Positions 2,291 to 15,419 of a DNA stretch of 64,000 nt are shown here, one piece after another. Positions within the stretch are counted from its first letter, which is position 1, and each line of letters starts with the position of its first letter. The notes beneath the pieces were generated by a model that was not told the origin of the DNA, made no database searches, and saw only the letters and a list, made by a program, of their open reading frames with translations. The stretch is taken from IMG/VR virus record IMGVR_UViG_3300025815_002670, positions 1 through 64,000 of that record. The stretch is one strand, 5' to 3'. Both the position numbers and the translations under genes were made by a program. This DNA is from a virus.

Positions 2291-3978
2291 GACTATTACT
2301 TGAAAAATGGGAAGCATACCTTGAAGAAGGCAAAGCAGACGATATTGTTGCAAAATATCCAAACCTTAAGCCTGCTTTTGACGCCGGAATAAAAAATCCC
2401 CAGCAACTTACCTGGATGTCAAAAAGGCTTGGCGACACTCCTATTGAAGATGCAATCGATGCAGTAAAAGAATTTGACAAAGCAAAGTCTGCTTTAAAAG
2501 CCAAAAAGAAAAATACTGATATCTATGGTTATAAAACTGTTCAAGATCTAAAAGACATTGTTCAATCCATTGGTCCATCAGGAAGTGAAAAAGATGCTCA
2601 ACTTGAAAAAGAAAGAATTCTTGTTGGCGAGTTTGGTGATTGGAAAGTTGAATTGCCGCTTACAACAGCGTCGGCTTGTCAAATTGGAAAAGGAACAGTG
2701 TGGTGCACTGCTGCAACAAAAGTTAAAAACATGTTTTTGCATTATACTGAACAGGGCTATATTCTTTTTCACATTACAAAAAGAGGTGCAGATCCAAGAA
2801 AAGATCCTACTGCGAAACTTAATGTTGGGTTTAAAGATGGAGAGGCCGTTTTAGATGGCAACACTGGTGGTTTATCTGTTGATGCAAAAAATATTGGTCT
2901 TAACACCAATAAATTACAAAAAATCCTCGGAGATCAGTTTGAGCCAATCATGCAAGCTATGCAGGCACAATCGGATGAATTAGGTGGCATTCATCCAGCA
3001 AAGGGCGAAAAAGAAGAAAGAGAAAGGAAACAAAGAGAAGAGACATTGAATGGGGCAGAGCGAGCCGCCAAAGATCCAGAACTAAATAAAGAATTTTACG
3101 AAAGAATCAAAGGACAGATGCCAGACCTTCGTATCACTTATTTAGAAAAACTTTTTGCTTCGGAGCCTATTCCTGAGGTTGTTGACTTTTATGTAGAAGA
3201 GGCTCTTAACGGTCCAGATGACAACGCCGGCATTCGGGTTCTTTCTACTCGTGCAAGGCCCGCTGCAATTGATCGTATTTTTGTTAAATCGAAAGAAATG
3301 GGTAAAGAAATTTCTGCTACTTTTGCTATTTTGCTGTCAAGGAGCCCATATATTCATGCCGAGGCTTTGGTCCGTTTAACAGAAATTCCTGCATTTATCA
3401 ATCATGATGACAGTAGTTCAGTTAGAATGAGTGTATTGGGTAATGATAAGTTGCCACTCAAAGTGGCTTTAAAATATCTTGATAAATACATCGAAGAAAG
3501 AAAGTCTCTGTCATCACAAGATCGCGACCGTGAGAGCTTTTTAAAACGAGTAGAAGCGGATAACGTGATTGAAGATATGGCATCAAGAAAAGACCTGCCA
3601 CCAGAAATGCTTAAAAAATTAGCAAAAACTTCTGATAGTGCCAAAGTTCTCTCTGATGTCGGTATGAATGTCAACACTCCTCCAGATGTTCTGCTTGACT
3701 TGGCAACGGAACGAATTTTTATGATTAAAATGGCAGTTGCTAAAAACCCTTCAAGTCCAGCAAATGTTTTGACAGCGCTATTAAAAAGTATTAAAAAAGA
3801 TGTTTTGGATGGTACTGGAAGAGGTAAACGACGAGCAGAGCAGCTTACAAGCGCTGTTCAAAATAACCCAAATTATACAATAGCGGGCAGAGTTAAGGCA
3901 GGTGCTTCGGATCTTCTTAGAAGACTAGTTAAAGAAGAACTTGAAGCCGTTCTTCGTGAAAAGGGCATAAAAAATTGA
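2287..3978 (+). CDS. Candidate head-cargo protein with WCT domain and LRV-like repeats
   Basis: 563 residues. Residues 1-14 form an amphipathic leader, MRLLLEKWEAYLEE, shared with the next genes and ending in an LxE site of the kind cut by T4-type prohead proteases. Around 127-175 lies GKGTVWCTA followed by FLHYTEQGYILFHI, a pattern I know from uncharacterised phage proteins. Residues about 240-270 are highly charged and helical. The C-terminal third has repeats ending in NVNTPPDVLLDLA and AKNPSSPANVLTALL, resembling leucine-rich-repeat-variant units. The protein ends in a basic/acidic helix (RRLVKEELEAVL). Function unknown; packaging in the head is inferred from the leader. Confidence 0.7.
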   Translation: MRLLLEKWEAYLEEGKADDIVAKYPNLKPAFDAGIKNPQQLTWMSKRLGDTPIEDAIDAVKEFDKAKSALKAKKKNTDIYGYKTVQDLKDIVQSIGPSGSEKDAQLEKERILVGEFGDWKVELPLTTASACQIGKGTVWCTAATKVKNMFLHYTEQGYILFHITKRGADPRKDPTAKLNVGFKDGEAVLDGNTGGLSVDAKNIGLNTNKLQKILGDQFEPIMQAMQAQSDELGGIHPAKGEKEERERKQREETLNGAERAAKDPELNKEFYERIKGQMPDLRITYLEKLFASEPIPEVVDFYVEEALNGPDDNAGIRVLSTRARPAAIDRIFVKSKEMGKEISATFAILLSRSPYIHAEALVRLTEIPAFINHDDSSSVRMSVLGNDKLPLKVALKYLDKYIEERKSLSSQDRDRESFLKRVEADNVIEDMASRKDLPPEMLKKLAKTSDSAKVLSDVGMNVNTPPDVLLDLATERIFMIKMAVAKNPSSPANVLTALLKSIKKDVLDGTGRGKRRAEQLTSAVQNNPNYTIAGRVKAGASDLLRRLVKEELEAVLREKGIKN

Positions 3979-9546: not shown

Positions 9547-9789
9547 ATGTTCATTGAAAGCGAAACTTTCGGAAAAAAAGACAAATTTAAGGTTGGAGAT
9601 CTCGTTTGGTGGAATAAAATTGGTAAAAATATGTCTGGTGTCGTGCAAAATCTATTTTTGAAAGATGTCGGAGGTCGAAAAGTTGCTTTTGCGATAGTTT
9701 TAGACTTCAATGACCAGACACACAAAGAAATTTTGTGTATAAACTTGAAAAAAATGCCTTATCAAACAAATACAATGGAAGAAAACTAA
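9547..9789 (+). CDS. Small SH3-like conserved phage protein
   Basis: 80 residues. The segment FKVGDLVWWNKIGKNMSGVV near 14-33, followed by further short strands, is typical of a small SH3-like barrel and resembles short proteins common in T4-related marine phages. No catalytic residues are apparent. It starts two bases after the preceding stop. Function unknown. Confidence 0.65.
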   Translation: MFIESETFGKKDKFKVGDLVWWNKIGKNMSGVVQNLFLKDVGGRKVAFAIVLDFNDQTHKEILCINLKKMPYQTNTMEEN

Positions 9790-9797
9790 TTATTACA

Positions 9798-10598
9798 ATG
9801 AAATATCGCATCATCAACAACTCCAATCTTGATATGAACGGAATGAAACCACTTTTGAACAGTTTTCTTCCGTTTGCGCGTCAAAAAATGGGCTTTTCTA
9901 AGCCTGTTTGCATAAAATTCGTTCACGACGATCAAAATGCAGCAAACCCACTTGGAAAAACTGCCTTTTATGACCCAAATGACTACTCAGTGACGCTTTT
10001 CACGACTGGAAGACACCCAAAAGACATTATGAGGTCGCTTTCGCATGAGTTGGTGCATCACAAGCAAAACTGCGATGGAAAATTTGATCAAAAGCCTACT
10101 TATGGCGAAGATTATTTCCAAAATGACGATTATTTGAGAGAAATAGAGCGCGAAGCCTATGAAAAAGGAAATATGTGCTTTAGAAACTGGGAAGAACAGT
10201 ACAGAGCACAGTTGCAAGAATCTACTTATTACCAAAAAGGAGAAACCAAAATGAAACTCAACGAGTGGAAGAACAAGGAAATGTTCGAGCGTCTTACCGA
10301 GGCTTACGGCTACGGAAAGATGAAGGAAGAAGAAGTAGTTGAAGAGTCAAACTGCATGGGAGAAGGCGAACTTGGCGAGTCAAACTGCATGGACGAGGGC
10401 ATGTGCCCTACATGCGGTATGAGACCTTGCGGCTGCCCTATGATGGAAGAGGAAGCCAAGCCAGATTTCCTAGATCTTGATAAGGATGGCAACAAAGAAG
10501 AGCCAATGAAGGATGCTGCTGCTTCTGCAAAGAAGATGAGCGAGTCCCAAATTCGTTCCCTTGTTCGCGAAGCCCTCAAGAGAACACTCGCCAAGTAA
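9798..10598 (+). CDS. Zinc metallopeptidase with acidic Cys-rich tail
   Basis: 266 residues from ATG 9798; an in-frame ATG at 9735 lies inside the preceding gene and is rejected. SHELVHHKQ near 78-86 carries HExxH, and REIEREAYEKG near 114-124 could give the third zinc ligand. Residues 152-266 differ: they begin MKLNEWKNKEMFERLTE, hold two SNCM segments and a CPTCGMRPCGCP cluster, and end SESQIRSLVREALKRTLAK. This second part has its own ribosome site and start and may also be made alone. The protein could mature virion proteins or act after injection. HExxH is clear; the substrate is unknown. Confidence 0.75.
   Translation: MKYRIINNSNLDMNGMKPLLNSFLPFARQKMGFSKPVCIKFVHDDQNAANPLGKTAFYDPNDYSVTLFTTGRHPKDIMRSLSHELVHHKQNCDGKFDQKPTYGEDYFQNDDYLREIEREAYEKGNMCFRNWEEQYRAQLQESTYYQKGETKMKLNEWKNKEMFERLTEAYGYGKMKEEEVVEESNCMGEGELGESNCMDEGMCPTCGMRPCGCPMMEEEAKPDFLDLDKDGNKEEPMKDAAASAKKMSESQIRSLVREALKRTLAK
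10251..10598 (+). CDS. Possible nested product of the metallopeptidase gene
   Basis: An ATG at 10251, in frame with the metallopeptidase, is preceded by AAGGAG at 10237-10242 with 8-base spacing, a better ribosome site than that of the full gene. It would give a 115-residue protein starting MKLNEWKNKEMFERLTE, which resembles the leader of the 2287-5410 genes and has an LTE site at 15-17. The product would hold the CPTCGMRPCGCP cluster and the basic C-terminal helix. Separate production, with a role as internal head protein, is an inference. Confidence 0.45.
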   Translation: MKLNEWKNKEMFERLTEAYGYGKMKEEEVVEESNCMGEGELGESNCMDEGMCPTCGMRPCGCPMMEEEAKPDFLDLDKDGNKEEPMKDAAASAKKMSESQIRSLVREALKRTLAK

Positions 10599-10609
10599 GG
10601 AACAACAAA

Positions 10610-12580
10610 ATGACCTCTATTCTTTCCGAAGGTGGTGTCGCTGGACATATGAACCACCTTTATGACAACCCAGAATTAACATTTGCAGAGATGAAAAACA
10701 TCTTTCAAGCAGCCTCAAGTGGAGAACTTGATGGAACAGAGAAGACTGATGGCCAAAACCTTCAGTTATCCTACGATGTTAAGACTGGAACTGCCCGTGC
10801 TGCCCGAAACAAGGGCAACATTAAGAGTGGAGGTCTAACTGCTGCCGGTCTTGCTGAGAAATTCGGAGGTCGTGGACCACTAGAAAAAGCTTTTACCGAA
10901 GCATTTGCTGCTTTTGAGCAAGTTGTTAGTCAAATGTCAGAGGAAGAGCAGATCGAGATCTTTGGCCCAAACACAAATATCTACTACAACGCTGAGGTTC
11001 AGGATCCAAGATCCGCTAATGTTATCAACTATGACCTTCCCACTTTGACTATTCACCGAGTTGGGCATAATGAATATGACCGTGAGACGGGTACCCCAAC
11101 AGGAAGGGATGTTTCCTCTAACGCTTTTAAGTTAGCAAATGCCTTAGAAAGCCAACAAACAGGAAGAGAGGTCGGAAAGTTCCTTGTTCAAATGAACGCT
11201 ATTCGTAAGTTAAGCGCTTTGAGCGATGACAAAGCAGTTGCTGTCGCCAACGCTCGCCTTGAAAAAGTTATTTCTGATGCTGGAATCTCTGACAACCAAA
11301 CTGTCGCTGAATATATGGTTTCTCGCGTAAGCGATATGGTTGATAAGAGAATAGACCTACCATTAGACGTTAAAAAAGAACTTATGAAGCGCATTTTTAA
11401 GGAAGAAGGTGCGAGTCTTGTAAAGGTTCGCAAGTTAATCCCGGCTGGTGATACCCAGATGCGCAAGGCTGTTGACGAGTTAGTCAAGGCTGCTGGAAAT
11501 TTGAAGAAGGCTGCTATTTCTCCAGTGGAAGAGATCGTGCACGACTTCTCTGTAGAGATGCTTAAAGGGCTTGAGAGCGCGTTCATTTTAGATAACAAGG
11601 CAGAGGTCGGAAGACTTCGTGCGGAACTTCAGAAGGCTATTGAGGCTATTGAGGCGAGTGGTTCTGATGAGGCTATGGCGATCCTACAGAAGCAGATGAG
11701 CAAACTCAAGTCTATCGAAGGTGTCTCAACAGCAGCCGAAGGTTTTGTATTTGATTATGATGGTGTAACCTATAAGTTCACAGGAAACTTTGCACCAATG
11801 AACCAGTTGCTCGGACTTTTCAAATATGGTCGTGGTAATGTTCCCGCTCTCCGCAAGTTGGACGAGGAAGAACAGACCGGAGGACAGACAGTTGCGGTTG
11901 TTCCTGGGGCCTTTAAGCCTCCTCACAGGGGTCATCTTGAAATGGTCAAACATTACGCAAATCTTGCTGACAAGGTTGTTGTTATGGTTTCACCACTTCC
12001 AAGAAGAACACCAAGTGGTCGCGATATTGATTTTAGTGTTTCTAAGGCAATTTGGAATTTATATTTAAGAGATGCTGGACTTTCTAACAAAGTTGAAGTT
12101 ATTCGATCTCCTGTAAATTCTCCGGTTTCAGCAACTTACCAGTTTGTTGCAAACGAGGACAACAAACCAGAGATGGCTCAGCCGGGTGATATTGTTATTC
12201 CTGGTTGCAGCACTAAGGGCGGTGACGAGGCTCGTTTCAAGGCTAACTTTGAAAAGTATGCCCGTGAAGGTGTTATGATAGAGGATCCTATTAGTTGTGC
12301 CTTTGTCGCGTCCTCTGATGACGCTCTGAGCGCTCGTGATTTTAGGGCGGCTCTTGATGCCGGCGCTGGCTTAGAAGACTTCATACCGGACGAGACGAGC
12401 CCTGAGGAGGTTCTTTCTATCCTGGGTGTGGAGCCTGGACCGGAAGTGCCTTTGGATGAAATGTCCTCTATGGCTGCTGGGTCTGTCGCTGGCTACTCTG
12501 GAAGCCCTGTTAGAAAGAGAACTGACGAGGTTGTTGAAGAGGTTCTAAACTATTTAATAAGTAAGGGAGTCTTAAAATGA
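10610..12580 (+). CDS. Ligase-like nucleotidyltransferase fused to a cytidylyltransferase-like domain
   Basis: 656 residues with two nucleotide-transfer modules. The N-terminal part looks like the covalent nucleotidyltransferase superfamily (DNA/RNA ligases, capping enzymes): EKTDGQN at 44-50 would hold the reactive lysine, EGFVFDYDG at 377-385 fits motif IV, and YKFTG just after fits motif V. A helical insert of about 200 residues separates them. The C-terminal part has VPGAFKPPHRGHLEMV, with the HxGH signature at 439-442 of NMN adenylyl- and cytidylyltransferases. The combination suggests work on RNA ends or on a nucleotide cofactor; which one is not visible. The stop overlaps the next start. 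Confidence 0.75.
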   Translation: MTSILSEGGVAGHMNHLYDNPELTFAEMKNIFQAASSGELDGTEKTDGQNLQLSYDVKTGTARAARNKGNIKSGGLTAAGLAEKFGGRGPLEKAFTEAFAAFEQVVSQMSEEEQIEIFGPNTNIYYNAEVQDPRSANVINYDLPTLTIHRVGHNEYDRETGTPTGRDVSSNAFKLANALESQQTGREVGKFLVQMNAIRKLSALSDDKAVAVANARLEKVISDAGISDNQTVAEYMVSRVSDMVDKRIDLPLDVKKELMKRIFKEEGASLVKVRKLIPAGDTQMRKAVDELVKAAGNLKKAAISPVEEIVHDFSVEMLKGLESAFILDNKAEVGRLRAELQKAIEAIEASGSDEAMAILQKQMSKLKSIEGVSTAAEGFVFDYDGVTYKFTGNFAPMNQLLGLFKYGRGNVPALRKLDEEEQTGGQTVAVVPGAFKPPHRGHLEMVKHYANLADKVVVMVSPLPRRTPSGRDIDFSVSKAIWNLYLRDAGLSNKVEVIRSPVNSPVSATYQFVANEDNKPEMAQPGDIVIPGCSTKGGDEARFKANFEKYAREGVMIEDPISCAFVASSDDALSARDFRAALDAGAGLEDFIPDETSPEEVLSILGVEPGPEVPLDEMSSMAAGSVAGYSGSPVRKRTDEVVEEVLNYLISKGVLK

Positions 12581-13416
12581 AAGACAGAAACGACTTTATT
12601 GCTGAGCAACTTTTAAGAGAAAATATCAGAAAGGCTTTAACAACTGTTAAGACCAAGAAGGCCCAAAAGGCACTCAACGAAGAGACTGAACTTCGTGGTG
12701 TTATTCGTAAGCTTCTAAAAGAAAAGATTGCTGTTGGCGATGAAGTCCCTCATCAGAAGACTGGAATCAACAAACTAAGGGACACTCTTAAGAAAATTGT
12801 TCCACAGATCCGTGATGACTATTTGAACTTAACCACTGACGAGTCTCAGAGAAAGTCTTATATCGCTCACCTTGTTAATGGTATTGATAATCTATTAGCA
12901 CCTATTAACACTAATATAGATGCTCCTGAGCCAAGTGACAAGCAAGATCTTGAAGAAGAGATCGAGATCAGTGTTAGTGATGAAAAAGCTGCTGATGACG
13001 AAAACTTCATTGATATTGGAGATGATATTCTTCCATCTGGTGAAGAAGAGGAAGATGAAGAAGGAATTGAAATTTCCGATGAAGAAGAATTAGTAACTCG
13101 TGGTTTAGATACTGATGAAAATGATGAAACTGGAAGAAATGCTGCTATTGAAACTTTCAAGCAAATCCAGTCTGCTATTGTTACTGACTTTAGTGTATTA
13201 GCAAATGATGAAGATCGTGAGATCTATCATGACTATCTAAAAACTAATATTCTTCTTTGGAGAGATAGATTTGAAGAAGTCCTTACAAAGAACTTACCTG
13301 AACCTACAACACCAGAATATGAAGAAGAGAAGGCTGGTGTTCAACCAGGAGAAGATAAAGAAGATACTGGTGGAGAAGATAATTTAGAAGATCTATTAGA
13401 GATTATAGATTTATAA
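12577..13416 (+). CDS. Acidic protein with T4-like capsid-targeting leader
   Basis: 279 residues. The start MKDRNDFIAE closely resembles the capsid-targeting sequence of T4 internal proteins as I recall it (MKTYQEFIAE), which the prohead protease removes after the Glu. Further helices follow (ENIRKAL, LRGVIRKLLKEK). The middle and C-terminus are strongly acidic, with runs of Glu and Asp near 120-175. An internal head or core-scaffold protein fits the composition. GGGAG lies 7 bases upstream of the start, and ATGA overlaps the preceding stop. No enzyme motif seen. Confidence 0.55.
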   Translation: MKDRNDFIAEQLLRENIRKALTTVKTKKAQKALNEETELRGVIRKLLKEKIAVGDEVPHQKTGINKLRDTLKKIVPQIRDDYLNLTTDESQRKSYIAHLVNGIDNLLAPINTNIDAPEPSDKQDLEEEIEISVSDEKAADDENFIDIGDDILPSGEEEEDEEGIEISDEEELVTRGLDTDENDETGRNAAIETFKQIQSAIVTDFSVLANDEDREIYHDYLKTNILLWRDRFEEVLTKNLPEPTTPEYEEEKAGVQPGEDKEDTGGEDNLEDLLEIIDL

Positions 13417-13771: not shown

Positions 13772-14107
13772 GGGGGTGCACTGGATTCGACAGGGTAAAT
13801 GAAGAGAATAGTGCAGGCAGTCGTGATGACTCAAAAAATCAAAAACAAATTAGTTGCCAACAACAACGCACACTTTGATTCCGTCCGCCTAGCGGCTTAA
13901 TCAAGGAGGCTGATCAGAGCCTTCTATCCAATCTGGTCAACACAACAGACAAGTTGTAAAAATCAAAACAATTCAACGCAACAGGGCGGTGAGCGTTGAT
14001 TTACAACCGCCTACCTTCTCTAGTTTGGATGGTAAAAACTAGACAAGCCTGTGGATGACTTGAATTGAATTTTATTCTGGACGCGGGTTCGATTCCCGCC
14101 ACCTCCA
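13772..14107 (+). ncRNA. ssrA: Transfer-messenger RNA (tmRNA), one-piece, phage-encoded
   Basis: The 5' end reads GGGGGTGCACTGGATTCGAC, the standard tmRNA opening. The acceptor stem GGGGGTG (13772-13778) pairs with CACCTCC (14100-14106), with discriminator A at 14107; CCA is not encoded. The T arm is GCGGG, TTCGATT, CCCGC (14083-14099). AGAATA (13805-13810) pairs with TATTCT (14073-14078) to give helix H2. After TTAGTT the resume codon GCC at 13856 opens a 14-codon tag, ANNNAHFDSVRLAA, ending at TAA 13898-13900. A GGCGGT/ACCGCC stem lies downstream. The LAA end is the usual ClpXP/ClpAP degron, so the RNA looks functional in trans-translation. Confidence 0.95.
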
Positions 14108-14131
14108 TTTCTGTCTTTTCTCTAACAGAAA
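14108..14131 (+). other. Hairpin just after the tmRNA
   Basis: TTTCTGT (14108-14114) pairs with ACAGAAA (14125-14131) across a 10-base pyrimidine-rich loop. No T-run follows, so it is a poor terminator. It may help define the tmRNA 3' end for processing, since no CCA is encoded. Confidence 0.4.
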
Positions 14132-14963: not shown

Positions 14964-15419
14964 ATGGGAAAGACAGTAGTAGTTTCAGGAGGTTTCGATC
15001 CAGTCCATGTTGGACACCTCCGCATGATGCAAGAAGCAGCAAAACACGGCGAGCTTATTGTGGTTATCAACTCGGATCCATGGCTCATGAGAAAGAAGGG
15101 TTTTATTTTTATGCCCTTTTCAGAGAGGGCTGAGATCATTTCTGCTTTTGAGTGCGTTTCAAGGGTCGAAGTAGCACTAGACAGCGACAACACCGTTTGT
15201 CAGTCGCTTCGTGTAATAAAGCCTGACATTTTTGCTAATGGTGGAGATAGAACACCCGGCAGAGTCCCAGAGCAGGATGTGTGTGAAGAACTAGGAATCG
15301 AGATGCTTTGGAATGTTGGAGGCGGCAAGGTTCGCAGTTCATCGACTCTCGTAAGAGAAGCAACAGACAATAAGAGAAAGTTAGATCTAGCACATTTTAG
15401 AGAGACAACCGCTATTTAG
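14964..15419 (+). CDS. Cytidylyltransferase-fold nucleotidyltransferase, HldE C-terminal type
   Basis: 151 residues, a single nucleotidylyltransferase domain. SGGFDPVHVGHLRMMQEA at 8-25 has the HxGH motif. VVINSD, a KKG segment, PFSERAEII and a late SSSTLVRE fit the fold of ADP-heptose synthase (HldE C-terminal domain) and glycerol-3-phosphate cytidylyltransferase. Such enzymes attach AMP or CMP to a sugar or polyol phosphate. HldE-type activity would fit the heptose-like enzymes in the 24-34 kb glycan cluster, but the two are far apart. A terminator directly follows. Confidence 0.75.
   Translation: MGKTVVVSGGFDPVHVGHLRMMQEAAKHGELIVVINSDPWLMRKKGFIFMPFSERAEIISAFECVSRVEVALDSDNTVCQSLRVIKPDIFANGGDRTPGRVPEQDVCEELGIEMLWNVGGGKVRSSSTLVREATDNKRKLDLAHFRETTAI

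Follow-up and report, generated by a model that had tools for sequence, protein, structure and literature searches.

A phage fusion of an RNA-ligase-type domain with a HIGH-type nucleotidyltransferase, a probable head-packaged precursor

Virus record IMGVR_UViG_3300025815_002670 of IMG/VR (77,670 bp) contains, in the 64,000 nucleotides analyzed here (positions 1 to 64,000; the window), a marine phage gene that joins two nucleotidyltransferase domains in one chain (Table 1). Its open reading frame (ORF) begins with an ATG preceded by AAGGA, and its stop codon shares bases with the start codon of the following gene (ATGA at 12577). The 656-residue protein carries KTDG at residues 45 to 48, EGFVFDYDG at 377 to 385, YKFTG at 388 to 392, and PHRGH at 438 to 442. 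Genes for a zincin-type peptidase and an acidic protein flank it in a cassette. Fewer than 400 bases after the cassette, at 13772 to 14110 on the plus strand, lies a tmRNA gene (Rfam RF00023, 112.8 bits; tag ANNNAHFDSVRLAA), a position that would fit translation stress and that we do not count as evidence. Farther along the plus strand, at 14964 to 15419, another HIGH protein is encoded on its own; it is close to heptose-1-phosphate adenylyltransferase (PHROG 7878).

Table 1. Coordinates in the window of the fusion gene, its predicted parts, and the adjoining cassette genes
Feature	Position	Strand	Basis or remark
Upstream zincin-type peptidase (HELVH, M91-like), cassette member	9735..10598	+	Homologues upstream in relatives; fused in L026; Pfam M91 below cut-off
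Fusion gene	10610..12580	+	656 aa, 71.1-kDa precursor; ORF and translation, relatives
Predicted N-terminal propeptide MTSILSE, cut after E7 to give a GG N-terminus	10610..10630	+	E/GG pattern of relatives; disordered in model
RNA-ligase-type covalent nucleotidyltransferase domain	10631..11845	+	Residues 8-412; alignment, model, fold matches, weak Pfam RNA_ligase
Motif I, EKTDG, predicted nucleophile Lys45 (10742-10744)	10739..10753	+	Invariant in 79/79
Motif III, YYNAEV (Glu129)	10982..10999	+	At least 90% conserved
Helical insertion between motifs III and IV	11231..11707	+	About residues 208-366, about 160 residues; model secondary structure
Motifs IV (EGFVFDYDG, Glu377) and V (YKFTG, Lys389)	11738..11785	+	Invariant residues
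Linker LDE, predicted cut after E419	11858..11866	+	[LIM]xE in linkers; within pLDDT<50 segment 417-424
HIGH-superfamily nucleotidyltransferase domain	11882..12433	+	Residues 425-608; Pfam PF01467, NMNAT/CoaD profile matches, VIA Z about 15
HxGH (H439, H442)	11924..11935	+	Alignment
Second HIGH-family motif LSARDFR (SxxxxR type)	12326..12346	+	R579 at least 90% conserved
C-tail motif LDE/MSSMAAGSVAGY, predicted cut after E617, matching the capsid-protein maturation motif	12452..12496	+	Motif scan
Downstream acidic protein, cassette member, start overlapping the fusion stop	12577..13416	+	Homologues downstream in relatives

Searched alone against PHROGs and Pfam, the window protein returned nothing for its N-terminal half. 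An alignment of that domain found at least 579 related stretches in IMG/VR and, when scanned against genome contigs, four contigs binned as MAGs, which are probably viral. Among annotated phage records, the domain was found only in a single cultured phage and in two genomes from uncultured ones. E44, K45, D47, G48, R66, E377, K389, and G392 do not vary across 79 non-redundant, divergent ligase domains, and E129 is nearly invariant; Lys45, which the initial annotation had named as the nucleophile, is thus never lost. An AlphaFold2 model of the domain alone, built with its alignment, has a pLDDT of 95.4, and its top Foldseek matches are RNA ligases, the fold expected from the earlier motif assignment. 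The best 50 matches listed by VIA-align 2 against the PDB are all polynucleotide ligases or ligase domains, led by Naegleria RNA ligase (Z 9.2 over 188 residues at 4.0 Å) and including T4 Rnl1 (Z 8.8), Z values that are moderate. The titles of the Naegleria entries give K170-D172-E227-E312-K326, in parallel with the order K45-D47-E129-E377-K389 here. The Pfam family touched by most members is RNA_ligase (PF09414), with weak matches in 22 of 79 (best E 5.6e-4) and no match for the window member. The domain alignment met no fitting model in PHROGs, and its profile gave only chance matches to PDB sequences and did not match phages S-PM2 and immuto. Conserved residues and the model together identify residues 8-412 as a covalent nucleotidyltransferase of RNA-ligase type, divergent in sequence and complete in its catalytic residues; the domain is without a Pfam or PHROG model and previously unrecognised.

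Residues 425-608 are assigned, likewise from alignment and predicted fold, to the HIGH-type nucleotidyltransferases. The match to Pfam CTP_transf_like (PF01467) is a narrow pass (21.5 bits against a cut-off of 21). A profile search matched NMNAT and CoaD, with an archaeal NMNAT as the best match, and CoaD and NMNAT match equally by fold (Z about 15), so the substrate of this domain cannot be named. Both domain assignments of the initial annotation, and the motifs on which it based them, were thus borne out. Its expectation that the HxGH histidine would be retained holds in the subfamily of the window protein and fails beyond it: within a set covering both domain orders, at least a dozen relatives have GxHH, with the first His replaced.

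A scan of IMG/VR with the whole protein found 29 loci with relatives, mostly full length, and an alignment of 23 relatives keeps both motif sets. Since full-length relatives occur there at 35 to 94% identity, the fusion is not a chance product. It had been taken for an unusual arrangement, which it is in kind; it is not peculiar to one phage, being widespread among uncultured marine phages. In Mel-JY01, a cultured phage of Microcystis, the two domains are present in the opposite order, encoded about 2.6 kb upstream of the large terminase gene. The chemistry is familiar, and the likely deployment is unusual. The two domain kinds occur in either order, as neighboring or overlapping genes, or with a different ligase-like domain. 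The neighborhood counts rest on 71 non-redundant loci whose ligase domain is N-terminal, 62 of them with enough upstream sequence. Homologues of the zincin gene lie upstream in 45 of these 62, and homologues of the acidic gene lie downstream in 59 of the 71 (17 of these in the ORF of the fusion itself). Cassette genes thus occur separate or fused; L026 encodes a 1563-aa protein in which a zincin, the ligase-like domain, DUF4116 repeats, and the HIGH domain are combined and LxE marks the domain boundaries. In L031 and L028 an extra ParB-like domain (DGHHRW) is C-terminal to the HIGH domain, and the window gene starting at 3975 is weakly ParB-like. Two partners known from other systems, the RNA-repair protein RlaP and NadV (PF04095), were sought in 16 records and not found; Rnl1, also sought as a partner, was found only in Mel-JY01.

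In T4, the prohead protease gp21 cleaves on the C-terminal side of L/I-x-E (PMC9026906). The window protein has four (L/I)xE sites, of which three (E7, E419, and E617) fall in the pLDDT<50 segments 1-12, 417-424, and 611-640; shuffling residues inside such segments gave this type of placement in 0.8% of trials. The ligase domain begins at GG in the 92 distinct sequences examined. The preceding residue is E in 54, with L, I, M, or V at P3 in all 54; GG directly follows the start Met in 26 and an internal Met in 6, and Met, Val, Ser, Ile, or Cys precedes it in some relatives. Cutting at E/GG in the 54 and starting at Met-GG in the 26 would both leave GG as the mature N-terminus. The E/GG pattern holds when the domain sits mid-chain in longer proteins, and relative L004 begins MKFLKSYEEFLNENLILE/GG. 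Six loci (L095, L104, L105, L111, L112, and L116) have an internal LLLM instead of LLxE before the GG, which may mean that cutting follows a different specificity or that translation starts internally. In the linker between the domains, [LIM]xE is present in 54 of 60 relatives against 26.2 ± 3.6 expected from shuffled linkers, a comparison in which the relatives are not independent samples and the linkers are otherwise highly variable; LxE is absent from about 10% of linkers.

The conserved C-tail motif LxE/xSxMAxGxVxGY is found again in the relatives' capsid protein gp23, where it reads LLKE/ASTMAGGDVEGF and occupies the predicted maturation site just ahead of the shell domain. From this position and the L/I-x-E form we infer that the gp23 motif is a cut site. 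A scan of 867,000 residues of ORFs found the motif 42 times, against 4 in a shuffle, and nearly all matches are in the fusion family, the HIGH proteins of L029 and L030, one L018 protein, and the relatives' gp23. Nearly all near-complete relatives encode the gp21 protease (Peptidase_S77, PF03420; 14 of 16 records) and gp23 (PF07068; 13 of 16). Neither Pfam family was matched in the 77.7-kb record of the window, which is probably incomplete. Elsewhere in the window, the adjacent genes starting at 2287, 3975, and 4565 encode unlike proteins that begin MRLLLEKWEAYLEE, MKLLLERWNKFLKE, and MKLLLEKWNKYVVSE, and similar starts (MKLLMENWREYMTEE and MKLLIENWRKFLNE) are found on unlike proteins in L015, L016, and L032. 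These shared starts are a possible capsid-targeting sequence. An aromatic-xx-aromatic N-terminal motif occurs in 14 of 563 N-termini against 27 of 2883 internal windows, a difference too weak to stand alone.

A related arrangement occurs in cultured phages. By tblastn, DUF6267 is present in 465 phage records, mostly from cyanophages, in which the DUF6267 gene (T4-GC71) overlaps or abuts the gene for the cytidylyltransferase T4-GC190. T4-GC190 is a distant homologue of the window HIGH domain (E 2e-8 to 1e-5, Z set to 1000) and was detected in S-SM1 cyanophage virions (PMC3037559). DUF6267 has K-W-D-G, QGD, EG[YF]V, and, 13 residues further, a Lys, at a spacing near that of the window domain. 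The S-PM2 protein (BFVD) compares with the ligase-domain model at TM 0.40. Sister phage L030 keeps a HIGH domain 67% identical to that of the window, with the same neighbors, and has DUF6267 in place of the ligase domain. Motif spacing, fold, and this replacement relate DUF6267 to the ligase domain, and the replacement suggests that DUF6267 is a second ligase-like family. An hhalign comparison of the ligase-domain alignment with DUF6267 was not significant (E 0.17); the DUF6267 profile did not match the window protein and was not among the families listed for the ligase-domain alignment. No mention of DUF6267 or Mel-JY01 was found in the literature searched.

Several single loci add to this picture. 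DUF6267 (T4-GC71), which looks like a second ligase-type family, stands beside T4-GC190 in L130 (796-2564) and L126 (526-2305); in the S-PM2 record (AJ630128) the two are encoded in different frames as p138 and p139, and S-PM2p140, considered as the ligase gene, was rejected for having no motifs. In L030 (3925-6756) a single ORF encodes a nucleotidyltransferase (NTase) that starts LLE/GG and that we read from its motif as Pol-beta-like, together with DUF6267 and the HIGH domain. The combination is reminiscent of RNA-repair sets, but neither RlaP nor NadV turned up in the 16 records. A protein of Flavobacterium phage immuto (L002, 4299-7022), annotated as NadR-type, combines a Pol-beta-like NTase, a HIGH domain, and an M91-like zincin.

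We consider it probable, with moderate confidence, that the fusion is a precursor packaged in the head, cut into two enzymes, and injected with the DNA. We infer, strongly, that the chain would enter the prohead with the neighboring cassette proteins and that the gp21-type protease of the phage would cleave it C-terminal to E7, E419, and E617, which would free a 44.9-kDa ligase-like enzyme beginning GG and a 21.3-kDa HIGH enzyme, both to be ejected into the next host along with the DNA. This reading draws on the three of four [LI]xE sites in disordered segments and the excess of LxE in the linkers, the C-tail motif shared with gp23 in relatives that mostly encode gp21 and gp23, and the virion detection of T4-GC190. 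It draws too on the L, I, M, or V at P3 in every E/GG case, on cassette genes that are separate or fused with LxE between domains, and on the LLE/GG that in L030 precedes an unrelated domain. What follows ejection is more tentative. The ligase-like enzyme could self-adenylylate on Lys45 with ATP and seal or adenylylate RNA ends before phage gene expression, host tRNAs cut by defence nucleases being possible targets, an activity that we regard as possible and somewhat doubtful. The HIGH enzyme might, independently of the ligase, couple an NMP to a small phosphorylated substrate, perhaps an NAD precursor. Against head cargo, L/I-x-E is a short motif, packaging and cleavage in the window phage are predictions from sequence and model, and the capsid-protein-like C-tail motif could act as an assembly signal without cleavage. 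The linkers that have no LxE, the other residues ahead of GG in some relatives, the lack of a gp21 or gp23 match in the window's own record, and the searches for RlaP and NadV that found neither count on the same side. A wider proposal, which we hold doubtful, is that a widespread phage class packs a nucleic-acid repair kit (zincin, ligase-like enzyme, HIGH enzyme, and acidic partner) as a polyprotein that bears a capsid maturation signal and is cut by the prohead protease, with RNA sealing before phage gene expression, and that the cyanophage DUF6267 system is the cultured form of this kit.

The initial annotation envisaged one protein that makes a nucleotide cofactor and then attaches it to RNA or protein. 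In that case the chain would stay uncut as a late-made bifunctional enzyme, its HIGH domain supplying a dinucleotide or activated cofactor that the ligase-like domain uses on RNA or protein in the infected cell. A linked function is suggested by the recurrence of the domain kinds together, in both orders and as overlapping neighbor genes, and by the replacement of the ligase-like domain by another beside a closely related HIGH domain. The conserved LxE in the linker and at both ends, the varied domain arrangements, and the head-maturation signature oppose this and favor a precursor that is cleaved to release separate enzymes. Same-ORF partners that include zincin, ParB-like, and repeat domains also fit cargo better than a single pathway, and the failure to find NadV in the 16 records weighs on the same side. 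We judge a lasting bifunctional enzyme quite unlikely.

It seems unlikely that the gene is an NAD-protection kit. Under that reading the HIGH domain would act as an NMN adenylyltransferase to replenish NAD+ after a host NADase defence, and RNA repair would fall to the ligase-like domain. In its favor are the archaeal NMNAT at the head of the profile matches and the existence of phages that have enzymes for NAD salvage (PMC9503650). The equal CoaD fold match and the GxHH relatives count against it, and, because NadV was not found in the 16 records, an NAD role is without genomic support. The domains might alternatively have become parts of the head scaffold or core, with their chemistry of little weight. 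T4 RNA ligase 1 also promotes tail-fibre attachment, as the name of its BFVD entry states, and the head-type processing motifs and the conserved cassette with its acidic protein would suit such a morphogenetic role. Structure alone would not require the invariance of all ligase catalytic residues, and the ligase domain is swappable for DUF6267; a purely morphogenetic role appears very unlikely. Among these readings, packaging as head cargo remains the one we prefer.

Marine viromes are rich in the ligase-like domain, yet neither Pfam nor PHROGs has a model for it. If it is head cargo, catalytic RNA chemistry would join what phages are thought to inject, and bearing the cut site of the capsid protein would be a simple route for loading cargo. 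The comparison also offers a testable function for DUF6267 and for the virion protein T4-GC190, both of which can be assayed in cultured phages.

The window protein can be set beside several known systems. It shares with RNA ligases (Naegleria Rnl, T4 Rnl1, T4 Rnl2, and PF09414) KxDG, the motif III Glu, the motif IV EG, and the motif V Lys in order, and the fold (Z 8 to 9.2 over about 190 residues), and differs in its large helical insertion between motifs III and IV, its conserved GGxxGHM N-terminus, a sequence identity of about 12%, and its link to head-type processing sites. The HIGH domain has the HxGH, the SxxxxR-type second motif, and the fold of NMNAT and CoaD (PF01467), but is built into a predicted head-type precursor. 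DUF6267 (PF19782, T4-GC71, part of PHROG 455) presents a like series (K-x-DG, E/D, about 250 residues, EG, 12-13 residues, K) and adjoins or is fused to a HIGH domain, whereas it forms a separate Pfam family and usually has its own gene. Polyvalent proteins, as part of their description has it (PMC5512222), are likewise multi-domain, with zincin and ParB-like partners and predicted injection with DNA; no RNA-ligase-type domain is noted in that part, and the domains of the window type are instead bounded by gp21-type sites. The T4 internal head proteins and Alt, gp21 substrates with a capsid-targeting sequence, are comparable in processing: L/I-x-E sites lie near both termini, as for Alt (PMC9026906), and relatives of the window phage carry gp21 and gp23. 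Against the targeting propeptide of 10 to 19 residues of T4 internal proteins, MTSILSE is short and many relatives start at GG. Unlike those proteins, the window precursor comprises several enzymes with a site between them, and its C-tail resembles the maturation motif of the capsid protein.
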